NCBI GenBank assembly: GCA_003209655.1
Contig: QCPW01000001.1
Span: 434,001 to 498,000 of the forward strand
Length of the DNA: 64,000 nucleotides
Direction: 5' to 3'
Source: Prochlorococcus sp. AG-442-M23
Lineage (GTDB): Bacteria > Cyanobacteriota > Cyanobacteriia > PCC-6307 > Cyanobiaceae
Notes under the pieces: model-generated
The model's database searches: none
Told to the model about the DNA's origin: nothing
Seen by the model: the letters and a program-made list of their open reading frames with translations, nothing else
Shown: positions 15,816 to 45,528 of the stretch, piece by piece
How the letters are laid out: every line of letters begins with the position of its first letter
Numbering within the stretch: the stretch's first letter is position 1
Made by a program: the position numbers and the translations under genes

Positions 15816-17006
15816 TTGTCCAGAATTTTACTATTAAGTAATGGACATGGGGAAGATTTATCAGGTAGTTTGCTAGCCAAATATTTAGTAAATAAAGGAT
15901 ACCTCGTTGATGCGCTTCCAATCGTAGGTGATGGCGAACATTACAAAAAAATAAATATAAGAATCATTGGTAAAACTAAAAAATTTAAGACTGGTGGTAT
16001 TGGTTACAATTCTCTCAAAGGAAGAATGCTTGAAATATTTGGGGGGCAAATTACTTATTTATTAAAAAAATTATATTTATCTTACAAATTAAGAAATAAA
16101 TATGATTCTTATTTTGTTATTGGAGATATAGTCCCTATTTTTTTTGCATGGTTTGCAAAAAAAGATTTTTTTATATATTTAGTCGCATATTCGAGTCATT
16201 ATGAGGGAAAATTGAAATTACCTTGGCCTTGCAAATATTTTTTAATATCTAAATATGCAAAAAAAATATATGCTCGGGATTTTTTAACAGCAAATGATTT
16301 AACTCAACAATTAAGAAAACGAGTTTCTTTTTTTGGTAATCCATTTATGGACAAATTTTCATTTTTTGAAAATAAATTAAAGACCCTCTCTTTTAATGTT
16401 GGATTATTTCCTGGAAGCAGATTTCCTGAAATTTTAGATAATTTGCAAAAGATTCTAGAAGTTTTAGAGACAATGTCTGGTTTGAAATATTTTGAGAATG
16501 TAAAATTTGATTTCGCCATAGTAAATGCTCTCACACTGGACAAAATTAGGCATATACTAATTCAAAGAAAATGGATTGATAGAGAAAAAACAATAAAAAA
16601 TGGCAGTTTAATATTCAAATATGGATTTATTACAATTAAAATGAATTGGAATAAGTTTGAAGAAATATTGTGGAGAAGTAAGTTTGTTATTAGTATGGCT
16701 GGAACTGCTACAGAGCAAGCCATCGGATTAGCTAAGCCGGTTATTCAAATTGAAGGACAAGGTCCTCAATTCACTAAATCTTTTGCAGAAGCTCAAAGAA
16801 GATTACTTGGTAAATATGTTTTTTGTGCTACTAATTATAAAAATAAGAAAGATCAAATTAATCAGACCATTAATCTTATTCTTAAAGTTATTTATCTTAT
16901 AAAGATAGACAGTAAATTTTTGAGTTCTTGCCTTGAAAATGCAAATCTAAGAATAGGAGACAGTAAAGCATGTACTAAAATAATAGACGATATAGAAACG
17001 TCATGA
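15816..17006 (+). CDS. Lipid-A-disaccharide-synthase-related protein (TIGR03492 type)
   Basis: A 396-aa GT-B-like protein starting at a TTG immediately after the TPR stop. The first strand ILLLSNGHGEDLSG is characteristic of a cyanobacterial/plant family distantly related to LpxB. Later come SYFVIGDIVPIFFAWF, FFGNPFMDKF, GLFPGSRFPEI and, in the nucleotide-binding half, SMAGTATEQAIGLAKPVIQIEGQGPQF (read as two adjacent motifs). True LpxB builds lipid A; cyanobacteria such as Prochlorococcus are thought to lack canonical lipid A, so the acceptor is unknown. The 89-aa membrane protein follows 3 bp later. Confidence 0.8.
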   Translation: MSRILLLSNGHGEDLSGSLLAKYLVNKGYLVDALPIVGDGEHYKKINIRIIGKTKKFKTGGIGYNSLKGRMLEIFGGQITYLLKKLYLSYKLRNKYDSYFVIGDIVPIFFAWFAKKDFFIYLVAYSSHYEGKLKLPWPCKYFLISKYAKKIYARDFLTANDLTQQLRKRVSFFGNPFMDKFSFFENKLKTLSFNVGLFPGSRFPEILDNLQKILEVLETMSGLKYFENVKFDFAIVNALTLDKIRHILIQRKWIDREKTIKNGSLIFKYGFITIKMNWNKFEEILWRSKFVISMAGTATEQAIGLAKPVIQIEGQGPQFTKSFAEAQRRLLGKYVFCATNYKNKKDQINQTINLILKVIYLIKIDSKFLSSCLENANLRIGDSKACTKIIDDIETS

Positions 17007-20632: not shown

Positions 20633-21316
20633 ATGATAGGTATTGATAATACTTCCCTAGATCAAGTACCGAAAGTAACTTTTCAAAATGTAAGCTTTTC
20701 ATGGCCAGGAAAAAAACAGCTTGTGATAAATAATTGTAGTTTTTCTATTAATAAACAAGGTTTATGGATGATTGTAGGTAAAAATGGAAGTGGGAAGAGT
20801 AGCTTGCTAAAACTAATAACTGGACTTCTTAAGCCAAGCAATGGAGTTATAAATAATTCAGCTAATTTTGGGATGGTTTTCCAAAATCCTGATCATCAAA
20901 TTTTAATGCCAAACTGCAGGAGCGAACTTCTTTTAAATATTAATCAAAAGTTAAGTAGAAAAGAAATTACTAATAAAATTGATATTGCACTCAAAAAAGT
21001 TGGATTAACTGGATTTGATAAAAGACCGATTCACACTTTAAGTGGTGGTCAAAAACAACGATTAACTATTGCTTGTTGCCTAATTGGTGACAAGAATTTT
21101 ATTCTTATGGACGAGCCTACAGCTTTATTGGACAGCTCTAGTCAATTAAAAATTTTAAAAATAATTAGAGATCTTACAAATAATAAAAAAAATCCCTTTA
21201 CTGTTTTATGGATTACACATCGTTTAGAGGAATTAATTTATGCAGATGCAGTAGCAGAGATGAAGAATGGAAATTTGTCAGATTGGCAGAAACCATTAAA
21301 CTTTCAATATAATTAG
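20633..21316 (+). CDS. ABC transporter ATP-binding protein (EcfA/CbiO-like)
   Basis: A 227-aa nucleotide-binding subunit. Walker A GKNGSGKSS is at about residues 46-54, the Q-loop in GMVFQNPDHQILMP, the signature LSGGQKQR near 137, and Walker B ILMDEPTALLDSS with a following His switch WITHRLEEL. The FQNPDHQ Q-loop is typical of energy-coupling-factor ATPases (cobalt, biotin, other vitamins). No membrane partner gene is adjacent, so the substrate cannot be told. The UPF0367-like gene lies 1 bp upstream; tRNA-Asn follows by 48 bp. Confidence 0.85.
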   Translation: MIGIDNTSLDQVPKVTFQNVSFSWPGKKQLVINNCSFSINKQGLWMIVGKNGSGKSSLLKLITGLLKPSNGVINNSANFGMVFQNPDHQILMPNCRSELLLNINQKLSRKEITNKIDIALKKVGLTGFDKRPIHTLSGGQKQRLTIACCLIGDKNFILMDEPTALLDSSSQLKILKIIRDLTNNKKNPFTVLWITHRLEELIYADAVAEMKNGNLSDWQKPLNFQYN

Positions 21317-21364
21317 GGATTACCTCTTGTCATAAGGGACATGTAGGAGTTAAATTTCTTATAT

Positions 21365-21436
<72 letters not shown>

Positions 21437-21461
21437 TTCAATTTAAGATAATATTAACTTT

Positions 21462-21488
21462 AAGACCCAAAATAGGGTCTTTTTTTTG
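21462..21488 (+). terminator. Rho-independent terminator of tRNA-Asn
   Basis: An inverted repeat AAGACCC / GGGTCTT with loop AAAATA is followed directly by a run of T. It lies 26 bp after the tRNA. A TTTAAGA heptamer is repeated just before and inside it (21442-21448 and 21459-21465). Confidence 0.85.
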
Positions 21489-21496
21489 AAAGTAAT

Positions 21497-22348
21497 ATGC
21501 CATCATATTTCCCCCTACTCCCTTCAATATGTCTACACTCTTTAAATAAAGAAATAAAATCTTCTACGACATTATTGAATAATACTAATAATTTAAAAGA
21601 ATTTAATCAATCAAGAAAAAATCTTAAATCTATATATATTGGAACATACAAATTGTCTGGGTTGATTTGGGAGCTCATTTCGATAAAAAAGTGCAAATAT
21701 GGTGAGTTTTTTGATATTACAAGAAATGCTATTAATGTAAAATCAAATCAAATGGTTGTTTCGCTTTTTAAAATACAAGATGAGTTTCCAACATCTTCAC
21801 GCATTCTCCCAAAACCAGATTCATTACGAGTTGATTCATCCCCAGTAGCTGAAAGAGTTTCACTTAACTATCACTTTGAAGGCACAACAACAAGTTATCT
21901 AGGAGAATATCCCTATGAAATGGCTAACATTGATAAGGGAAGTTTTTGGTCTTTCGATGCTCTTAAAGAAATTCCTATTACAAGCAAAAGTGTTAAAAGT
22001 TTCTTGATTTTAATGAATATAAATCGTGATGCTGAAAAGCAGAGCGAAGTTAATTTGGATATTTATAATCCTCACCAAAAAGATGAATCTTTGCATTGGA
22101 AAGCTCGCCAAAACAGTTTTACAGTTATTAATCTAGAAGAAATAAATAAGGCCTTAAATTCTGAAAAAATCCATAAAACATTTTTCATTCAATGTAAAAG
22201 TTGTAATTTTATCCCTATGTTCTTAAGTGTGGATTTTAACAATAAGCAACTCTCCCTCGAACATACCCATCCACCTCATTCATTATTATGGGGTCGAGAC
22301 AGACTTAAAGTCATTAAACTATTAAAGGATAGATGGATCATAAAATAA
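21497..22348 (+). CDS. Unrecognised 283-aa protein at the tRNA-proximal edge of the variable region
   Basis: A complete ORF beginning 9 bp after the tRNA terminator. No domain is recognised and there is no signal peptide or membrane span. The middle has PKPDSLRVDSSPVAERVSLN and EGTTTSYLGEYPYEMA. The last 110 residues read as alternating strands (KSFLILMNI, SEVNLDIYNP, SFTVINLEE, TFFIQCKSC, PMFLSVDF), suggesting a beta-sandwich, and end with LEHTHPPHSLLWGRDR. It overlaps the next gene by 16 bp in a different frame, so the two are translated together. The tail resembles in layout the end of that next protein, hinting at a common beta domain. Confidence 0.6.
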   Translation: MPSYFPLLPSICLHSLNKEIKSSTTLLNNTNNLKEFNQSRKNLKSIYIGTYKLSGLIWELISIKKCKYGEFFDITRNAINVKSNQMVVSLFKIQDEFPTSSRILPKPDSLRVDSSPVAERVSLNYHFEGTTTSYLGEYPYEMANIDKGSFWSFDALKEIPITSKSVKSFLILMNINRDAEKQSEVNLDIYNPHQKDESLHWKARQNSFTVINLEEINKALNSEKIHKTFFIQCKSCNFIPMFLSVDFNNKQLSLEHTHPPHSLLWGRDRLKVIKLLKDRWIIK

Positions 22349-23160
22349 AGTCTTTTTTTAAAAAAAATATACCTGGACCTTTAAGAAATATTTTTTCTGT
22401 TATTTACAATAGAGGATCTAATCCTTATAGCTCAAAGAGTAGTATTTTTTCTCAAGTAAATATTTCTGATTTTTTTGTTTGGAATCCTCACGTTGAAAAG
22501 ATTGATTTTATTGCAGAAAATATTAGAGCTTTGTTTACAGGAGAGAATGTAGAGGTTCTTCATTGTTTTAAATTTTTCTCGCATGAAGGGGAATTTCTTA
22601 GTGAAGAAAAATATAAAAGTAATGACTTCTTCTCCCGAATACCATTAAATGGTCCTCCAAAATCTTCGTTTTATAGTTCATTTATTCACTATATTGAGGC
22701 TGAAAAAAGCTTTCATAAGCTAGTAAAAATTTTCTTTAAAAACAAGCTTTTTTTTGGTGAACAAAACAGGGGTTATTGTATTTATTATCCAAAAAATTCT
22801 CTTGTCGGATCAGCTGTTCATGGGAACTTTGGAGGAATTGCAAGTAAAGGCAAAAATCTTTTAGCTAGACAAAGATTATTTCACCTATACACCCCTGTTT
22901 ATAAATTTGAATCTCATAATAGTTATGATTTAGTTTTTAATAATCCAACTTCTTCTAAAATAAATATACAAATAATTTTAAATAAAAACTCAGAAGAAAT
23001 TCACCACTTACAAATTAATTCTTTAGGAACAAAAAGTTTTAAATTAGAAAATTTTGCTGGAAGTATAACTTTCAGATCAAAACTCCCAATTTGCAGACCT
23101 TTATTATTCAAAAATGTGAATGGATTAAAATCAGTTAATTTTGATGTTTTACATACCTAA
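22333..23160 (+). CDS. Unrecognised 275-aa protein, coupled to the preceding gene
   Basis: It starts at an ATG inside the end of the previous gene (16-bp overlap). The N-terminus is basic (DHKIKSFFKKNIPGPLRN), without a clear signal peptide. The central part carries GEQNRGYCIYYPKNS and AVHGNFGGIA. The C-terminal 90 residues look like beta strands (YDLVFNNP, KINIQIILN, EIHHLQINS, KSFKLENF, SITFRSKL, PLLFKN, SVNFDVLHT). I recognise no family. A plausible terminator at 23279 ends the pair. Pairing and overlap with its neighbour suggest a complex or a shared pathway step. Confidence 0.6.
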   Translation: MDHKIKSFFKKNIPGPLRNIFSVIYNRGSNPYSSKSSIFSQVNISDFFVWNPHVEKIDFIAENIRALFTGENVEVLHCFKFFSHEGEFLSEEKYKSNDFFSRIPLNGPPKSSFYSSFIHYIEAEKSFHKLVKIFFKNKLFFGEQNRGYCIYYPKNSLVGSAVHGNFGGIASKGKNLLARQRLFHLYTPVYKFESHNSYDLVFNNPTSSKINIQIILNKNSEEIHHLQINSLGTKSFKLENFAGSITFRSKLPICRPLLFKNVNGLKSVNFDVLHT

Positions 23161-23278
23161 ACTTGTTTATTTTTTAATCAAATATGCTCATCAATAGAAA
23201 GTTTTATGTCTTAAGACATTCCAATTATTAGAAAGATAATCCCTCATTATAATTATTTACTTTAATCGATATATTGCT

Positions 23279-23300
23279 AAATCCCTATTTTGGATTTTTT
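23279..23300. terminator. Possible intrinsic terminator between convergent genes
   Basis: AAATCC and GGATTT flank the loop CTATTTT, and the right arm runs on into six T residues. The stem is short and A/T rich, so this is weak, but it is placed correctly after the 21497-23160 gene pair. Confidence 0.45.
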
Positions 23301-23430
23301 GATTGCTTGGCGAAATTAATTATTAGAACCAGTACAGATTATTTAAATTCTGATTCCTCATAACTCGAATACTTTATAGTGTTAGTTTACATTTAATTAA
23401 GTCATAAAGGAAATGATAATTTCGCTTGAT

Positions 23431-24636
23431 TTAATTGGAGTACAAGTGTTCATATAAAAACCTGTGTCCCTCTTCATTGAGATGTCCATCATAACCGTAA
23501 TAAAGAATATTATTACAATTTTCTTTTGAACAATCTTTATTTTGATTGTATTGAGATATGTGTATCTTCATTGGTTCAAATAGATCAATAAAATTTTTTC
23601 CAATATCATTTTTTAATTTTTCTTTTAATCCAGTTAGGGTTAATTCTGTGTGGATTGGGACATTATATTGGTAACTTGTTCTGCCAGGAAAATTTTCTCC
23701 TTTAAAACTAAATGGAGAAGGTATATAAATGAAGCGAATTTTAGAATTTCTTTTAGTAGCTTCTTCTATCATATTTTTTACATCATTTAAAACTATTTCA
23801 TATGATTCTTTGTACACTTTATCCCAACATTTATAAGGTAGGGAAAAATATAGATAATCAACTAATAACGGAGATAATTTATCTTTATTATCCTTTAAAA
23901 ATTGACATTTATTATTATCTTTTGAGTAATTTAACCAAAAATCTTGGTGAGGTTTTTTATGTTTTTGTGATAAATAAACTTTTTGCAATTTTTGTAAGGT
24001 AAACGATTTTTTCATAAAATATTTAATAATACTTTTATAATATTTTTGATCTAAAGCTGTTTCTTGCTTATTAAAGGAAAAATATCTAGACCCATAACTA
24101 GGTGTAAAATCGTTTGCGAAAAGATAAATATCATACTTACTATTATTTGCATTTATAGCTTTTATCGATTTTAAATATTGCTCAGTATTCCAAGAAGCAT
24201 AACCAAAGCCATATGCTTTAATAACTGTTTTATCATTATTAATTAATCCATAAACTGTTTTTTCATATTGAATTTCATCTGCTTGAATAAATGAATCACC
24301 AATTAAAAAGAGATTAAATTTATTTTTTGCAAACTTTTGACTTATTGATTTCTTATTAACTCTCCCTCCAAAATTATCAGTATAAGATATAGTTTCATTT
24401 ATTATTGGATAGTCTTCGGTTCTAATTCTTGTAGAGATAGTATTAGGGCAGGAACCATATCTAAATTTAATTTGATTTAGTTTTAAGTTTTCACAGTATG
24501 AGTTGAAATTTTTTTCTAAAATATACTTTGCGTAGTATATTCTTAACCTAGGGGGAATTTCAAAAATAATTAGACAGGAAAAGAATATCAATCCTAATAG
24601 TATGAGAAATTGAGTCTTTAATTGTTTAAAATACAT
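23431..24636 (-). CDS. SGNH-hydrolase-like membrane-anchored protein
   Basis: A 401-aa protein with one N-terminal hydrophobic segment (about residues 9-27) that would anchor it, leaving the rest outside the cytoplasm. The SGNH blocks are visible: FLIGDSFIQAD (block I Ser), GFGYASWNTEQYL (block II Gly), FANDFTPS (block III Asn), and DGHLNEEGHRFL near the end (block V Asp/His). The DGHxN..GH ending is like AlgX-type and glycan O-acetylation proteins. It therefore probably hydrolyses or transfers acyl groups on a surface sugar. It faces the 21497-23160 pair convergently and is divergent from the leader ORF at 24968. Confidence 0.7.
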   Translation of the reverse strand: MYFKQLKTQFLILLGLIFFSCLIIFEIPPRLRIYYAKYILEKNFNSYCENLKLNQIKFRYGSCPNTISTRIRTEDYPIINETISYTDNFGGRVNKKSISQKFAKNKFNLFLIGDSFIQADEIQYEKTVYGLINNDKTVIKAYGFGYASWNTEQYLKSIKAINANNSKYDIYLFANDFTPSYGSRYFSFNKQETALDQKYYKSIIKYFMKKSFTLQKLQKVYLSQKHKKPHQDFWLNYSKDNNKCQFLKDNKDKLSPLLVDYLYFSLPYKCWDKVYKESYEIVLNDVKNMIEEATKRNSKIRFIYIPSPFSFKGENFPGRTSYQYNVPIHTELTLTGLKEKLKNDIGKNFIDLFEPMKIHISQYNQNKDCSKENCNNILYYGYDGHLNEEGHRFLYEHLYSN

Positions 24637-24967
24637 ATTTGAGTTAGGAGATCAAATTTATATGAGTGGAACTGTAGATTATTTATTAAAAAAGTAGTAT
24701 CCATATTAATACCATAATTTTAATTCAAAGTCCTAACCAAAACTTTTTCCTGCACTATTACAGAAAATGTTCCATTAAAAATTACTGAAGAAGCACAATA
24801 ATAATTTTTAAAAAGTATTTCCTAAAAAAATTTTGTTTGAAATTGTTTATTGTTTTTCTCTTAAAAAAAATATACTTCGTAAACTTTTAAGTCTAATTAT
24901 TTAATTCTATGTTTTCATAGTCATCTATAAATATTTATTCAGTACTATTAGAATAGAAGGAGGGACT
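24637..24967. other. A/T-rich divergent intergenic region (331 bp)
   Basis: It lies between the SGNH gene and a short leader ORF and must hold both promoters. The only clear element is the strong Shine-Dalgarno sequence AAGGAGG at 24957-24963, 4 nt before the ATG at 24968. No ORF over about 15 codons is convincing. Confidence 0.6.
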
Positions 24968-25036
24968 ATGATTTGTAATCGCAAGATAATCTTTTTTATC
25001 GCTATGTTTATAATAGAAATATATTCAATTGAATAA
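24968..25036 (+). CDS. Putative 22-residue leader peptide coupled to the next gene
   Basis: The ORF opens with ATG at 24968, preceded by AAGGAGG at a 4-nt spacing, unusually strong for this A/T-rich genome. It has 22 codons giving a basic then hydrophobic peptide (MICNRKIIFFIAMFII followed by EIYSIE). The stop TAA shares its final A with the ATG of the gene at 25036 (TAATG), so ribosomes ending here can restart directly. The gene at 25036 has no SD of its own other than what lies inside this ORF. It could be a translation-coupling leader or a small membrane peptide; there is no homology evidence. Confidence 0.45.
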   Translation: MICNRKIIFFIAMFIIEIYSIE

Positions 25037-25998
25037 TGGATAAGGTGTTTGCTTTTGGAGGACCCAAAAACTGGAATGCTGATAAAAAACAAAGTATTGA
25101 TTTAATAGATAGAATAATTCTTGATGGAAATTACATACACACATGTTATGACTATGGAGGCCATCTACAATTTGTTAGAGATGCAGCAATAAGGAATAAT
25201 AAGAAATTAAAGTTAATTTTAAAATGCTATCTTAACTACCCAGATATAAATAGCATTAGAAGAAGATCATTATATGAACAAATATATAGAGTTAAAAAAA
25301 TTCTTAATGTTGAAAATGAAATTATTATACAAATTTCATCAATCAATTCTTCGCGTGATTTTTTCGTTTCAAATTTAAATAAATTTCTAAACTTAATGTT
25401 TAATGATTTCTCAATAAAAACAATACTTTTGGAGTCTTTTCCTGCATCTGAAAAGTTTATTAAACAAGCAATAATAAGAATGAAAGAAGCTCAAATTTCC
25501 TCTGGTTTAGGAAATATTATCCAATTAGGAGTCACTTCATATGAAAACAATAGTTTGATAGGTTTTACACAAGAAATGAGAAATTTTATAACTAAAAATT
25601 CACTCTTATTTGCTCCTATGCGAGTAATGGGTTCAAAAATGAATAGTAAGGAAATTATGGAAGCTAAGGCAAAACTAAAATTGGATATGCAATATGCCGG
25701 CTTTTTTAGAGCAATAACTTCAGTATCAAATATAAATCAATACAAAGATTTAATGAACTTTTCAAATCAAAATCTATCAGTTTTTAGAAAAAGTGAAGTA
25801 CTTTTTCTAAATCATAAAAATACTTGTAGGAAGGATGCAAGAACTCCATATATCCCTTTATATAAAGGACATATTACTGCTACATTTGCTAGGTTCAGAT
25901 ATCTACTGGCAGCTATTTTTAGAAATTTAATATATATTACTCAAGGTAAAAGAAGCATATCCACTATTACTTATATCTATCCCCCAGGTTTTTTATAA
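25036..25998 (+). CDS. Aldo/keto-reductase-like protein with altered catalytic residues
   Basis: A 320-aa protein whose layout suggests an AKR TIM barrel. GGNYIHTCYDYGG-like segment (residues about 33-42, NYIHTCYDYG) aligns with the family FDTADxYG, LKLILKC with the catalytic-Lys strand, TILLESFP with the LLLHxP strand, and IIQLGVTSYENN with the GVSN strand. In this alignment Tyr and Lys of the tetrad are kept, but Asp is replaced by His and His by Glu. The C-terminal 60 residues are basic and unlike AKRs (FARFRYLLAAIFRNLIYI). The function may therefore be non-reductive. It is translationally coupled to the 22-codon ORF upstream. Confidence 0.5.
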   Translation: MDKVFAFGGPKNWNADKKQSIDLIDRIILDGNYIHTCYDYGGHLQFVRDAAIRNNKKLKLILKCYLNYPDINSIRRRSLYEQIYRVKKILNVENEIIIQISSINSSRDFFVSNLNKFLNLMFNDFSIKTILLESFPASEKFIKQAIIRMKEAQISSGLGNIIQLGVTSYENNSLIGFTQEMRNFITKNSLLFAPMRVMGSKMNSKEIMEAKAKLKLDMQYAGFFRAITSVSNINQYKDLMNFSNQNLSVFRKSEVLFLNHKNTCRKDARTPYIPLYKGHITATFARFRYLLAAIFRNLIYITQGKRSISTITYIYPPGFL

Positions 25999-26193
25999 AT
26001 AATTTGATTTACATCCCACCCGTGCAGTTTACGTTTAATATTTAAAAAATAGATAAAGAGCATTAAAAAAATTAATAGAGTTTTTTTAGGTTTATGAAAA
26101 ATTTAATTTGTGTTGATTAGCAGTGATAATTAATAGACCACTTTATTTCTTAGATTATATTCATTAGGTCAATGCTGTTTCATTCAAAATTAT

Positions 26194-26240
26194 CTCGCCT
26201 GAAGAGTCCAATTTAAGACTCAAAATAAATCTAGACTTTT
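26194..26240 (+). repeat. Candidate decayed copy of the tRNA-Asn 3' end and terminator
   Basis: Bases 26194-26218 match 21424-21448 (tRNA-Asn T-stem, acceptor 3' strand and flank) at 20 of 25 positions, and all five differences are transitions. The core gagtccaatttaaga differs by one base from gagttcaatttaaga. The match resumes (ctcaaaata against cccaaaata) if 17 bp between two TTTAAGA repeats in the tRNA copy are skipped, which is the terminator sequence. This is what an old attachment-site duplication would look like. I found it by eye; no statistics were run. Confidence 0.5.
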
Positions 26241-26265
26241 AAATGGTGCTTTTTTATTTAACTAA

Positions 26266-27291
26266 TTAAAATTTTATAAAATTGGATGATTTAACGTTAT
26301 TCTTTAAGAGGATTTCTATGATTTCATTAACCTTTAATCTTTTAGTATTATTAGAATTATAATCTAATGAATCGGAAGAGATTTCTTTGCTTTTTATGTG
26401 ATAGTTATCATAATCTAACCCCCTTTTATCAGGGGGTACTTTAAAGAATTTGCCCATATCCTCTACCCTTGCCATTTCTTCTCTTGATATAAGAGTTTCA
26501 TATAATTTTTCACTATGCCTGGTTCCAATTATTATATTCTCTTTTTTATAATTAAATATTTCTTTTAATGCTATTACAAGATCACCAATAGTACATGCCG
26601 GAGATTTTTGAACAAAAATATCTCCATTTAATCCCTTATCAAAAGCGTATAAAACTAGGTTGACAGCATCTTCTAAACTCATTAGATATCTTGTCATTTT
26701 TGGATTAGTAATTGTTATGGGTTTGTTTTTTTTGATTTGATCGATGAATAAGGGAATTACAGAACCTCTTGAACAAATTACATTCCCGTAACGTGTAGCA
26801 CAAAATATGCCTTTTTTATGATTAAGCAAAGATTGCGAAAGCATTAATTTTTCCATCATTGCCTTTGAGAGACCCATTGCGTTAATTGGATAAATAGCTT
26901 TATCAGTACTTAAAAATACAACTTTTTTAACATCTCTATATAAAGAAGCCTTTAAAATATTTTCTGTTCCTAGAACATTTGTTTTAAATGCCTCTAAGGG
27001 AAAAAATTCACAAGAGGGTACTTGCTTTAAAGCCGCTGCATGAAAAATATAATCAACATTTAGACAAGCATCAGATATACTTTTGAAATCTCTAACATCA
27101 CCAATAATAAAAGAAATTCTAGAGTCATTTAATTTTTTTCTCATTAAATATTGTTTGTTTTCATCTCTACTAAATATTCGTATTTCTTTAACATTAGTCT
27201 TAAGCAGAAGTTCAGTAAATGTACTCCCGAATGATCCTGTGCCTCCAGTTATTAATATTACCGAATTTTCAATACTTTTACTTTGAATCAT
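26266..27291 (-). CDS. UDP-GlcNAc 4,6-dehydratase/5-epimerase-like (FnlA/CapE/WbjB type)
   Basis: A 341-aa SDR enzyme of the polysaccharide-biosynthesis (CapD-like) group. The NADP loop GGTGSFGSTFTELLL is at about residues 16-30, FSRDENKQYLMRKKL follows, then AALKQVPSCEFFPLEA and STDKAIYPINAMGLSKAMMEK carrying the active-site region. The C-terminal ISREEMARVEDMGKFFKVPP and DKRGLDYDNY are typical of FnlA/CapE, which convert UDP-GlcNAc toward UDP-L-FucNAc precursors, more than of PseB. No FnlB/FnlC partners are seen in the window. The closest candidate reductase is the RmlD-like gene at 30332. Confidence 0.8.
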   Translation of the reverse strand: MIQSKSIENSVILITGGTGSFGSTFTELLLKTNVKEIRIFSRDENKQYLMRKKLNDSRISFIIGDVRDFKSISDACLNVDYIFHAAALKQVPSCEFFPLEAFKTNVLGTENILKASLYRDVKKVVFLSTDKAIYPINAMGLSKAMMEKLMLSQSLLNHKKGIFCATRYGNVICSRGSVIPLFIDQIKKNKPITITNPKMTRYLMSLEDAVNLVLYAFDKGLNGDIFVQKSPACTIGDLVIALKEIFNYKKENIIIGTRHSEKLYETLISREEMARVEDMGKFFKVPPDKRGLDYDNYHIKSKEISSDSLDYNSNNTKRLKVNEIIEILLKNNVKSSNFIKF

Positions 27292-43962: not shown

Positions 43963-44322
43963 TTAGTCATCCCACATGTCTTGTTTATCTTTTTCGATAC
44001 TATTTTTTTCAAGCAATTCTAATCTATGTTCCTTTGAATCTTCTTCAAAAACTTTTAATCTTTCTTTGTTTTCATATTTTTCTTGAATTTCAAGAATCAT
44101 AATTTCAAATTGATCTCCATAAAAATTAGACATTTCTTTCCATGCTTCCATTTCTTCCTCTTCACCTATTGTGTCATTTATTTGATGGCTGATAATTTCT
44201 AGAACAAATTCTTTCAACTCTTTATGACTCATAGATTCAACTTTTTTCTGAGCATAAATTTCTTTTAGATGTTGGAGCTGTTTTTTAGTTAAATCAGCAT
44301 ATGTAATTGATTTCTGTTTCAT
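43963..44322 (-). CDS. Unrecognised acidic helical protein
   Basis: A 119-aa protein with very high Glu/Lys content. Its sequence is almost entirely predicted helix, with a coiled-coil-like end (FEIMILEIQEKYENKERLKV). It starts MKQKSITYADLTKKQLQHLK. It has no cysteines, signal or membrane segment. I know no family for it. It stands alone, with 423 bp of A/T-rich DNA before rpaA and 569 bp on the other side, and could belong either to the core or to the variable region. Confidence 0.55.
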   Translation of the reverse strand: MKQKSITYADLTKKQLQHLKEIYAQKKVESMSHKELKEFVLEIISHQINDTIGEEEEMEAWKEMSNFYGDQFEIMILEIQEKYENKERLKVFEEDSKEHRLELLEKNSIEKDKQDMWDD

Positions 44323-44745: not shown

Positions 44746-45528
44746 ATGAAAATTTCAATCCTCTTAATAGAAGATGATCGTGATATGCGTGAATTGGTAG
44801 CGGGACATCTCGAGCACTCTGGCTTCGATGTTCAAAGAGCTGAAGATGGAATTAAAGGTCAAGCCTTGGCACTTCAGTATTCTCCAGATTTAATTCTTTT
44901 GGATTTGATGCTACCAAGTGTTGATGGCTTAACTTTATGTCAGAGACTAAGAAGGGATGAGAGGACTTCAAATATTCCAATTTTAATGATTACAGCTTTA
45001 GGTGGATTAAAAGATAAAGTGACTGGATTTAATTCTGGAGCTGATGACTACATAACAAAACCTTTTGATCTTGAAGAATTACATGTTCGTATAAAAGCAT
45101 TACTAAGAAGAACTAATAGAGCACAATTGAATTCAACTAATCAACAAGAAATTTTAAATTATGGTCCCTTAACTCTTGTTCCAGAAAGATTTGAGGCTAT
45201 TTGGTTTGAATCCCCTGTGAGGCTAACTCATTTAGAATTTGAACTACTTCATTGCCTACTACAAAGGCATGGACAAACTGTATCACCTGCTCTCATTCTA
45301 AAAGAAGTTTGGGGTTATGAGCCTGATGATGATATAGAGACAATTAGAGTTCACGTTAGACACTTAAGAACAAAATTAGAGCCCGATCCTCGCAAACCAA
45401 TATATATAAAAACCGTTTATGGAGCAGGATATTGTCTTGAATTGCCTTTGGGAGATCAAGTTGACGGAGCTAGCCAAGAATTTTCAGATTCCAGAAACTC
45501 AACTTTAATCAATACAGCATTTGAGTAA
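44746..45528 (+). CDS. rpaA: Response regulator RpaA (OmpR family)
   Basis: A 260-aa two-domain regulator. The receiver (about residues 3-118) has the acidic pocket EDD, the phosphate acceptor in LILLDLMLP (Asp near 53), and the conserved Thr and Lys (MITALGG, ITKPFD). The winged-helix DNA-binding domain is about 145-235, with [40 protein letters not shown] and [15 protein letters not shown]. These phrases closely match the cyanobacterial RpaA, the output regulator of the circadian clock phosphorylated by SasA. The C-terminal 25 residues are a polar tail. It is convergent with holB (2-bp gap). Confidence 0.88.

Follow-up and report, generated by a model that had tools for sequence, protein, structure and literature searches.

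A recurrent insertion site at a tRNA-Asn 3' end in Prochlorococcus, with a decayed gene-less mini element and a probable later four-gene insert

The stretch analysed here (the window) comprises 64,000 nucleotides of Prochlorococcus sp. AG-442-M23 (G000:C1:434001-498000), from a 1.63-Mb genome of 27 contigs that is 97.8% complete. We consider it likely that the 3' end of its tRNA-Asn gene is a recurrent integration site used by tyrosine recombinases, which received a gene-less mini element first and a four-gene block of 4.58 kb later. Two decayed copies of the tRNA end, here called R1 and R2, mark the ends of the mini element. An initial annotation, made from the sequence alone, had noticed R2 and took it for a single remnant bounding a 4.7-kb inserted block. 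Comparison with relatives indicates that R2 is real but one of two scars: R1 (26013-26028, 13/16 positions like the tRNA 3' end) was missed. An inserted block remains the better description, but it would span 21438-26016, and 26017-26207 would be a separate gene-less mini element. The features concerned, all on the plus strand, are as follows.

21364-21437: tRNA-Asn (GTT), intact (ARAGORN; Rfam RF00005)
21426-21437: last 12 bases of the tRNA gene, CGCCCGGGGAGT, the inferred crossover core, defined from the copies in relatives
21438-21490: terminator immediately 3' of the tRNA (hairpin -10.7 kcal/mol, z -2.2)
26017-26028: R1, CACCCGTGCAGT, a decayed core that marks the mini element's left end and, putatively, the right border of the block
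26029-26195: interior of the mini element, with a terminator-like stretch (weak hairpin at 26029-26090, -7.9 kcal/mol, z -2.3), a former iteron zone and the left arm of R2, as read from relatives' elements
26196-26207: R2, decayed core CGCCTGAAGAGT; the remnant noticed initially and the older border, facing the polysaccharide genes
26208-26260: right flank of R2, probably a former tRNA terminator whose stable hairpin is gone (z -0.16)

In the proposed order of events, crossover would occur within the last 12 bases of the tRNA gene. Each insertion would rebuild the tRNA end, bring along its own terminator and displace the previous end and terminator outward, where they would remain as a scar; the age of scars would thus increase with distance. 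The mini element of about 190 bp (26017-26207) would have inserted first and decayed. The four-gene block would later have entered between it and the tRNA, through an integrase that acted in trans or was lost.

The tRNA-Asn 3' end is an integration hot spot in the genus. Loci were located by this tRNA together with the ABC-transporter ATPase gene at 20633 (labelled ecfA in our analysis), both of which were matched in 125 of 151 genus genomes, including that of the window. The nearest named sequences to this ATPase gene belong to Prochlorococcus. From 115 of the 124 relatives we took the DNA 3' of the tRNA, in stretches of 0.8-20 kb, and tRNA-Asn was present in all 115. In the loci displayed, the downstream DNA differs among most genomes from the last base of the tRNA on, often with another terminator. 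Searching these loci and the window for the word CGCCCGGGGAGT (at least 11/12 matches) returned 63 copies, all of them on the tRNA strand, while shuffled words gave a mean of 1.1 copies on the plus strand, with one shuffle reaching 32. A profile built from the word copies (E up to 1) raised the number to 80 copies in 62 of the 115 loci, again with none on the other strand; 12 core bases match in 45 copies, 11 in 18, 10 in 13 and fewer in 4. For 47 of the 80, the right flank (at least 120 bp) is found directly at the intact tRNA of another genome, providing natural before/after pairs of precise insertions. The initial suggestion of elements that insert at the tRNA 3' end and leave decaying partial duplicates is borne out by these loci and by the flank tests given below.

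A distinct class of short elements occurs at these sites. Seventeen of the 80 inter-core intervals measure 169-257 bp, the next longer being 454 bp. Their longest open reading frame (ORF) is 45 amino acids, 12 of the 17 lie directly at the tRNA, and most carry a repeat of period 10 to 12, with five lacking a clear one. The distance between R1 and R2 in the window, 179 bp, falls inside this size class. When the interior at 26029-26195 (167 bp, cores excluded) was compared with the element of locus L217, the score was 92, against maxima of 61 for 500 shuffles over the 17 elements and 59 for 986 other window segments. The elements of L205, L220 and L224 also match (0 or 1 of 500 shuffles as good), and the other 13 match weakly or not at all. 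Aligned from core to core over 188 positions, 123 are identical with L217, 127 with L220, 115 with L205 and 108 with L224. By this homology, we assign 26017-26207 to a decayed mini element. A clear 11-bp repeat is no longer detected in it, and because a search of the window's genome with a 189-nt mini-element query returns nothing at E 1e-8, the copy is visible only by direct alignment. With the L217 element as query, 10 places were found in 8 of 266 genomes; nine (its own included) are at the tRNA-Asn locus and the tenth (G236, L256) is undecided. That the mini element spread horizontally is not supported, as three relatives' copies are 86-90% alike and the adjacent host gene 94-95%.

The scars can also be examined within the window. 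Bases 26194-26218 agree with 21424-21448 at 20 of 25 positions and all five mismatches are transitions, exactly as first reported. Without gaps, this is the top non-self place for the 25-mer on either strand of the 64 kb, and the maximum in 200 Markov windows and 1000 shuffled queries was 18 matches. An ungapped weight matrix made from relatives' sites (positions -40 to +24) was used to rank 127,848 window positions. It places the tRNA-Asn first, 26017 second and 26196 fifth, the scores of the latter two being negative. With core and right arm alone, 26196 ranks second and 26017 fourth, and with left arm and core 26017 ranks third and 26196 sixteenth.

Flank tests left out the core and used 400 composition-matched window segments as controls. 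No control was as good as the left arm of R2, and none as good as its right flank. Among relatives' flanks, the one closest to the right flank of R2 is the tRNA-Asn terminator of L124, which is a better reading than the earlier proposal that the match runs on into the window tRNA's own terminator once 17 bp are skipped. The right flank of the intact tRNA-Asn itself resembles the right arms of relatives' elements (0/400 controls as good), and the terminator at 21438-21490 is best read, from this resemblance, as the right arm carried in by the newest insertion.

The block between the tRNA and the mini element holds four ORFs.

21497-22348, plus strand: gene A, 283 amino acids, open, no family match; relatives in 5 of 150 other genomes
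22333-23160, plus strand: gene B, 275 amino acids; a relative (35-46% identity) adjoins each of the five gene A relatives
23431-24636, minus strand: ORF of 401 amino acids, no family match; 0 of 150 other genomes at E 1e-5
25036-25998, plus strand: ORF of 320 amino acids, no family match; weak relatives (25-30%) in 2 of 150 other genomes

The 401- and 320-residue ORFs had been labelled SGNH-like and AKR-like; neither has a Pfam or NCBIfam match. The AlphaFold model of the former is uninformative (mean predicted local distance difference test, pLDDT, 37.7), and a PDB search with the latter gave no significant match. The initial annotation spoke of unrecognised or degenerate genes; the frames are in fact open over 275-401 amino acids, and genes A and B, judged by their adjacency in five of the 150 other genomes, are a kept pair. 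The two genes form a family of which the window's members have no Pfam or NCBIfam match, and a conserved EHTHPP motif stands at the end of gene A.

A tblastn search (E 1e-8) of the 115 relatives' stretches detects none of the four genes. As the initial annotation expected of genomes without the insert, the FnlA-like gene lies close to the tRNA in relatives, at about 0.86 kb in L127 and about 1.1 kb in L144. The DNA that L144 shares with the window starts near 26250, immediately to the right of R2. The block probably arrived by the same tRNA-Asn route as the mini element.

Several results weigh against the proposed history, and they are best considered with the alternatives they favour. The strongest alternative accepts R2 and the mini element but has the block arrive by homologous recombination, or in several events since decayed, instead of by one site-specific insertion. 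No left arm is detectable at R1, where 281 of the 400 controls do equally well (112 when mean scores are used), and the signal of its right flank is weak, being equalled by 11 controls, or 55 on mean scores, so the right end given to the block is provisional. Because of that missing left arm, we treat the block as a putative single site-specific element. The block also carries no integrase, as initially stated: none of its four ORFs has a Pfam match, and the genome's PF00589 matches lie outside the window. A Pfam integrase occurs at the tRNA-Asn locus in just one of 91 genomes (that of the window included), G081, and tblastn with this protein finds full-length relatives in only 4 of 115 loci, G081 included. 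As to the proposed history in general, 33 of the 80 remnants are without an empty-site counterpart, and many of the 80 share descent, leaving 46 distinct left arms at 80% identity. The A-B pair is found elsewhere in other genomes, in loci L240-L244, away from tRNA-Asn as far as these loci show. Its neighbours there are a methyltransferase (L240), a pseudouridine synthase (L241), a sugar dehydratase (L242), a GtrA-type membrane protein (L243) and a cytidylyltransferase (L244), in some cases sugar- or surface-type genes. On the other side, the present right flank of the tRNA looks like an element arm, and the new DNA begins exactly at the tRNA end, as with relatives' insertions. We regard arrival by recombination or piecemeal as possible but rather unlikely.

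Chance similarity in A+T-rich DNA is a far weaker candidate, although the window by itself lends it some substance. The 25-mer was picked after the fact. With a gapped 53-nt junction query, 63 of 300 dinucleotide-shuffled queries reach the R2 score of 29 window-wide, and an opposite-strand place at 16880-16899 scores 30; nhmmer with a profile of relatives' sites lists neither R1 nor R2, even at E 50. The shuffle controls that the initial annotation called for were thus divided, the ungapped 25-mer beating all of them and the gapped whole-window query being equalled often. Because those gapped shuffles so often reach the R2 score, the match between R2 and the tRNA is ambiguous when the window is taken alone. 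In the gapped test limited to intergenic 25999-26266, 2 of 2000 shuffles are as good as R2. The relatives settle whether the scars are real: the core-excluded interior, which exceeds every shuffle and window segment, and the two flanks of R2 speak strongly against chance, which we reject for R2 and the mini element as highly improbable. A tandem tRNA duplication decaying in place would account for the likeness of R1 and R2 to the tRNA 3' end, but is rejected as equally implausible, since the relatives' copies usually share just the last 12 tRNA bases, all lie on one strand, have left arms that are non-tRNA and alike among elements in triplet phasing and iterons, and in 47 of 80 cases show precise insertion.

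We turn next to the enzymes that may have driven repeated site-specific insertion. Relatives of the G081 integrase occur at L143, L137 and L184 (35-37% identity, missed by the Pfam search), with a fragment at L120, and in three of the four integrase loci the gene lies 0.47-0.70 kb before the distal scar. The G081 element itself (L164:6254-14317; contig 3, reverse) occupies 8.0 kb between tRNA-Asn and a scar and encodes a tyrosine integrase, a T5orf172 protein, a serine invertase and a zinc-ribbon protein that weakly resembles primases. Neither the four block ORFs nor six proteins of this element include a relaxase or conjugation gene in a general Pfam scan, which was not an aimed search. Scanning viral contigs with the G081 integrase, a scan that detects close relatives only, returned none; the best-ranked match among phage records has 28% identity, and the exact 23-base tRNA end occurs in no viral contig scanned. 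Away from tRNA-Asn, an open frame of about 390 amino acids encoding a tyrosine recombinase occurs in many of the genomes searched, at G000:C3:123743-124198 (L236) and at other places in relatives.

The collected copies also outline the attachment site. On the 5' side of the core, TCA is enriched at positions -43, -33, -23 and -13 (25, 28, 19 and 10 of 46 non-redundant arms), and a TCA pair spaced by 10 bp occurs in 48 of 80 copies and 27 of the 46 arms (control 1.5%). Ahead of the core, 36 of 80 copies have direct repeats in tandem with a period of 11 (an exact run of at least 9; control 0.3%); 32 of these start 89-95 bp before the core, and the unit sequence varies between elements. The run TTTTT follows within 60 nt in 57 of 63 word copies, compared with 1629 of 5000 random positions and 112 of 116 tRNAs themselves. 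The 11-bp repeat is found in the integrase-bearing elements of L143 and L137, and none is seen in the G081 element. Some units, TGCTGGTGATG for example, are similar to TGKTGGTATC, the motif of the integrase arm sites in ICEMlSym(R7A), and the 11-bp iterons could be arm sites bound by the recombinase or by its directionality factor. Their combination with 10-bp-phased TCA triplets around the core may be a new detail.

It is tempting to see the mini elements as mobile units in their own right, a class akin to miniature inverted-repeat transposable elements (MITEs) for tRNA-integrating elements and moved in trans, but this reading is doubtful. Each would carry a complete attachment site, consisting of the 12-bp core, the 10-bp-spaced TCA triplets on the left arm and, some 92 bp ahead of the core, the 11-bp iterons. 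The mover would be whichever integrase reads the iterons of a given element, the iteron sequence differing between elements.

The kind of structure described here is already known, from tRNA-anchored islands and from microCIMEs, very small cis-mobilizable elements (CIMEs). In Streptococcus salivarius, microCIMEs are pieces of 130-220 bp that carry attachment sites but no genes, accreted and most decayed furthest from the target gene; the same paper cites CIMEs of S. agalactiae located at a tRNA-Lys gene (PMC7563491). The window's mini element agrees in size class, in stacking by accretion and in order relative to the target gene: it is 191 bp long with a decayed core at each end, and its longest ORF is 14 amino acids. 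The S. salivarius examples lie at protein-gene 3' ends beside integrative conjugative or mobilizable elements (ICEs, IMEs). In our loci tRNA-Asn is the target, conjugation genes were not identified, and 12 of the 17 mini elements sit directly at the tRNA. Tycheposons span 4-200 kb and use seven tRNA targets (PMC10872708). They share with our locus the tRNA border, cargo and, in some relatives' elements, a tyrosine recombinase; the 4.58-kb block is at their lower size limit and, unlike them, has no recombinase. We do not class it as a tycheposon; it is at most a possible remnant of one. A tRNA-Met island of a marine cyanobacterium holds five 36-bp partial tRNA copies with a putative P-SS2 phage attachment site (PMC2784084). 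Repeated partial tRNA copies are common to both, but there the tRNA is another, identity extends over 36-53 bp and transposase genes are nearby, in contrast to a 12-bp core here. The 283-bp attP of ICEMlSym(R7A) is described with five IntS arm motifs of about 10 bp (PMC11963761), similar to some of our units; the latter differ in being tandem, 11 bp long and variable between elements, with a nearly constant spacing to the core. No paper jointly treating Prochlorococcus, genomic islands and tRNA-Asn was found in one open-access library, searched with one spelling.

The tRNA-Asn is the sole tRNA in the window by ARAGORN, and the Rfam scan gave no match beyond it. The variable zone that follows it is 22.5 kb long, while in 101 relatives' loci tRNA-Asn and the DUF7326 gene are between 117 bp and 12.6 kb apart. 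The gene set from 26266 to about 43400 is mostly sugar- or polysaccharide-related. The zone ends at one further feature, followed at 44746 by an OmpR-type response regulator, which we take to be RpaA.

43963-44322, minus strand: DUF7326 gene, the first conserved gene past the variable zone

No further scar was recognised near the distal end (43.4-43.9 kb). A 42-bp piece at 35027-35068 matches, on the opposite strand, L169, L145, L192, L189, L179 and L125 at 81-83%; the counterparts lie about 900-1700 or 4400 bp past the relatives' tRNA, shortly before listed scars. One of the 115 relatives' stretches, L153, holds a tRNA-Ala besides tRNA-Asn, the sole such case. Elsewhere in the genome, G000:C5:124184-142436 (L234, L235) contains two tRNA-Pro (TGG) calls and six tRNA-Pro-like 3' stretches on one strand, all with GGTTCGAATCC. 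Several of these copies are followed by terminator-like T runs, and 11- or 12-bp tandem repeats precede three of the five examined (no control).

The analysis leads from one decayed match to an inferred order of insertions. The 80 attachment sites, 47 of them with empty-site counterparts, allow a base-by-base reading of core, arm triplets and element-specific iterons, and if the iterons match integrase types, which element moves which would become predictable. If the MITE-like reading of the mini elements is true, accretion at tRNA-Asn would be driven largely by elements without genes. The tRNA-Asn gene proves to be a general point at which new genes enter the genomes of the genus, here beside the surface-polysaccharide region.

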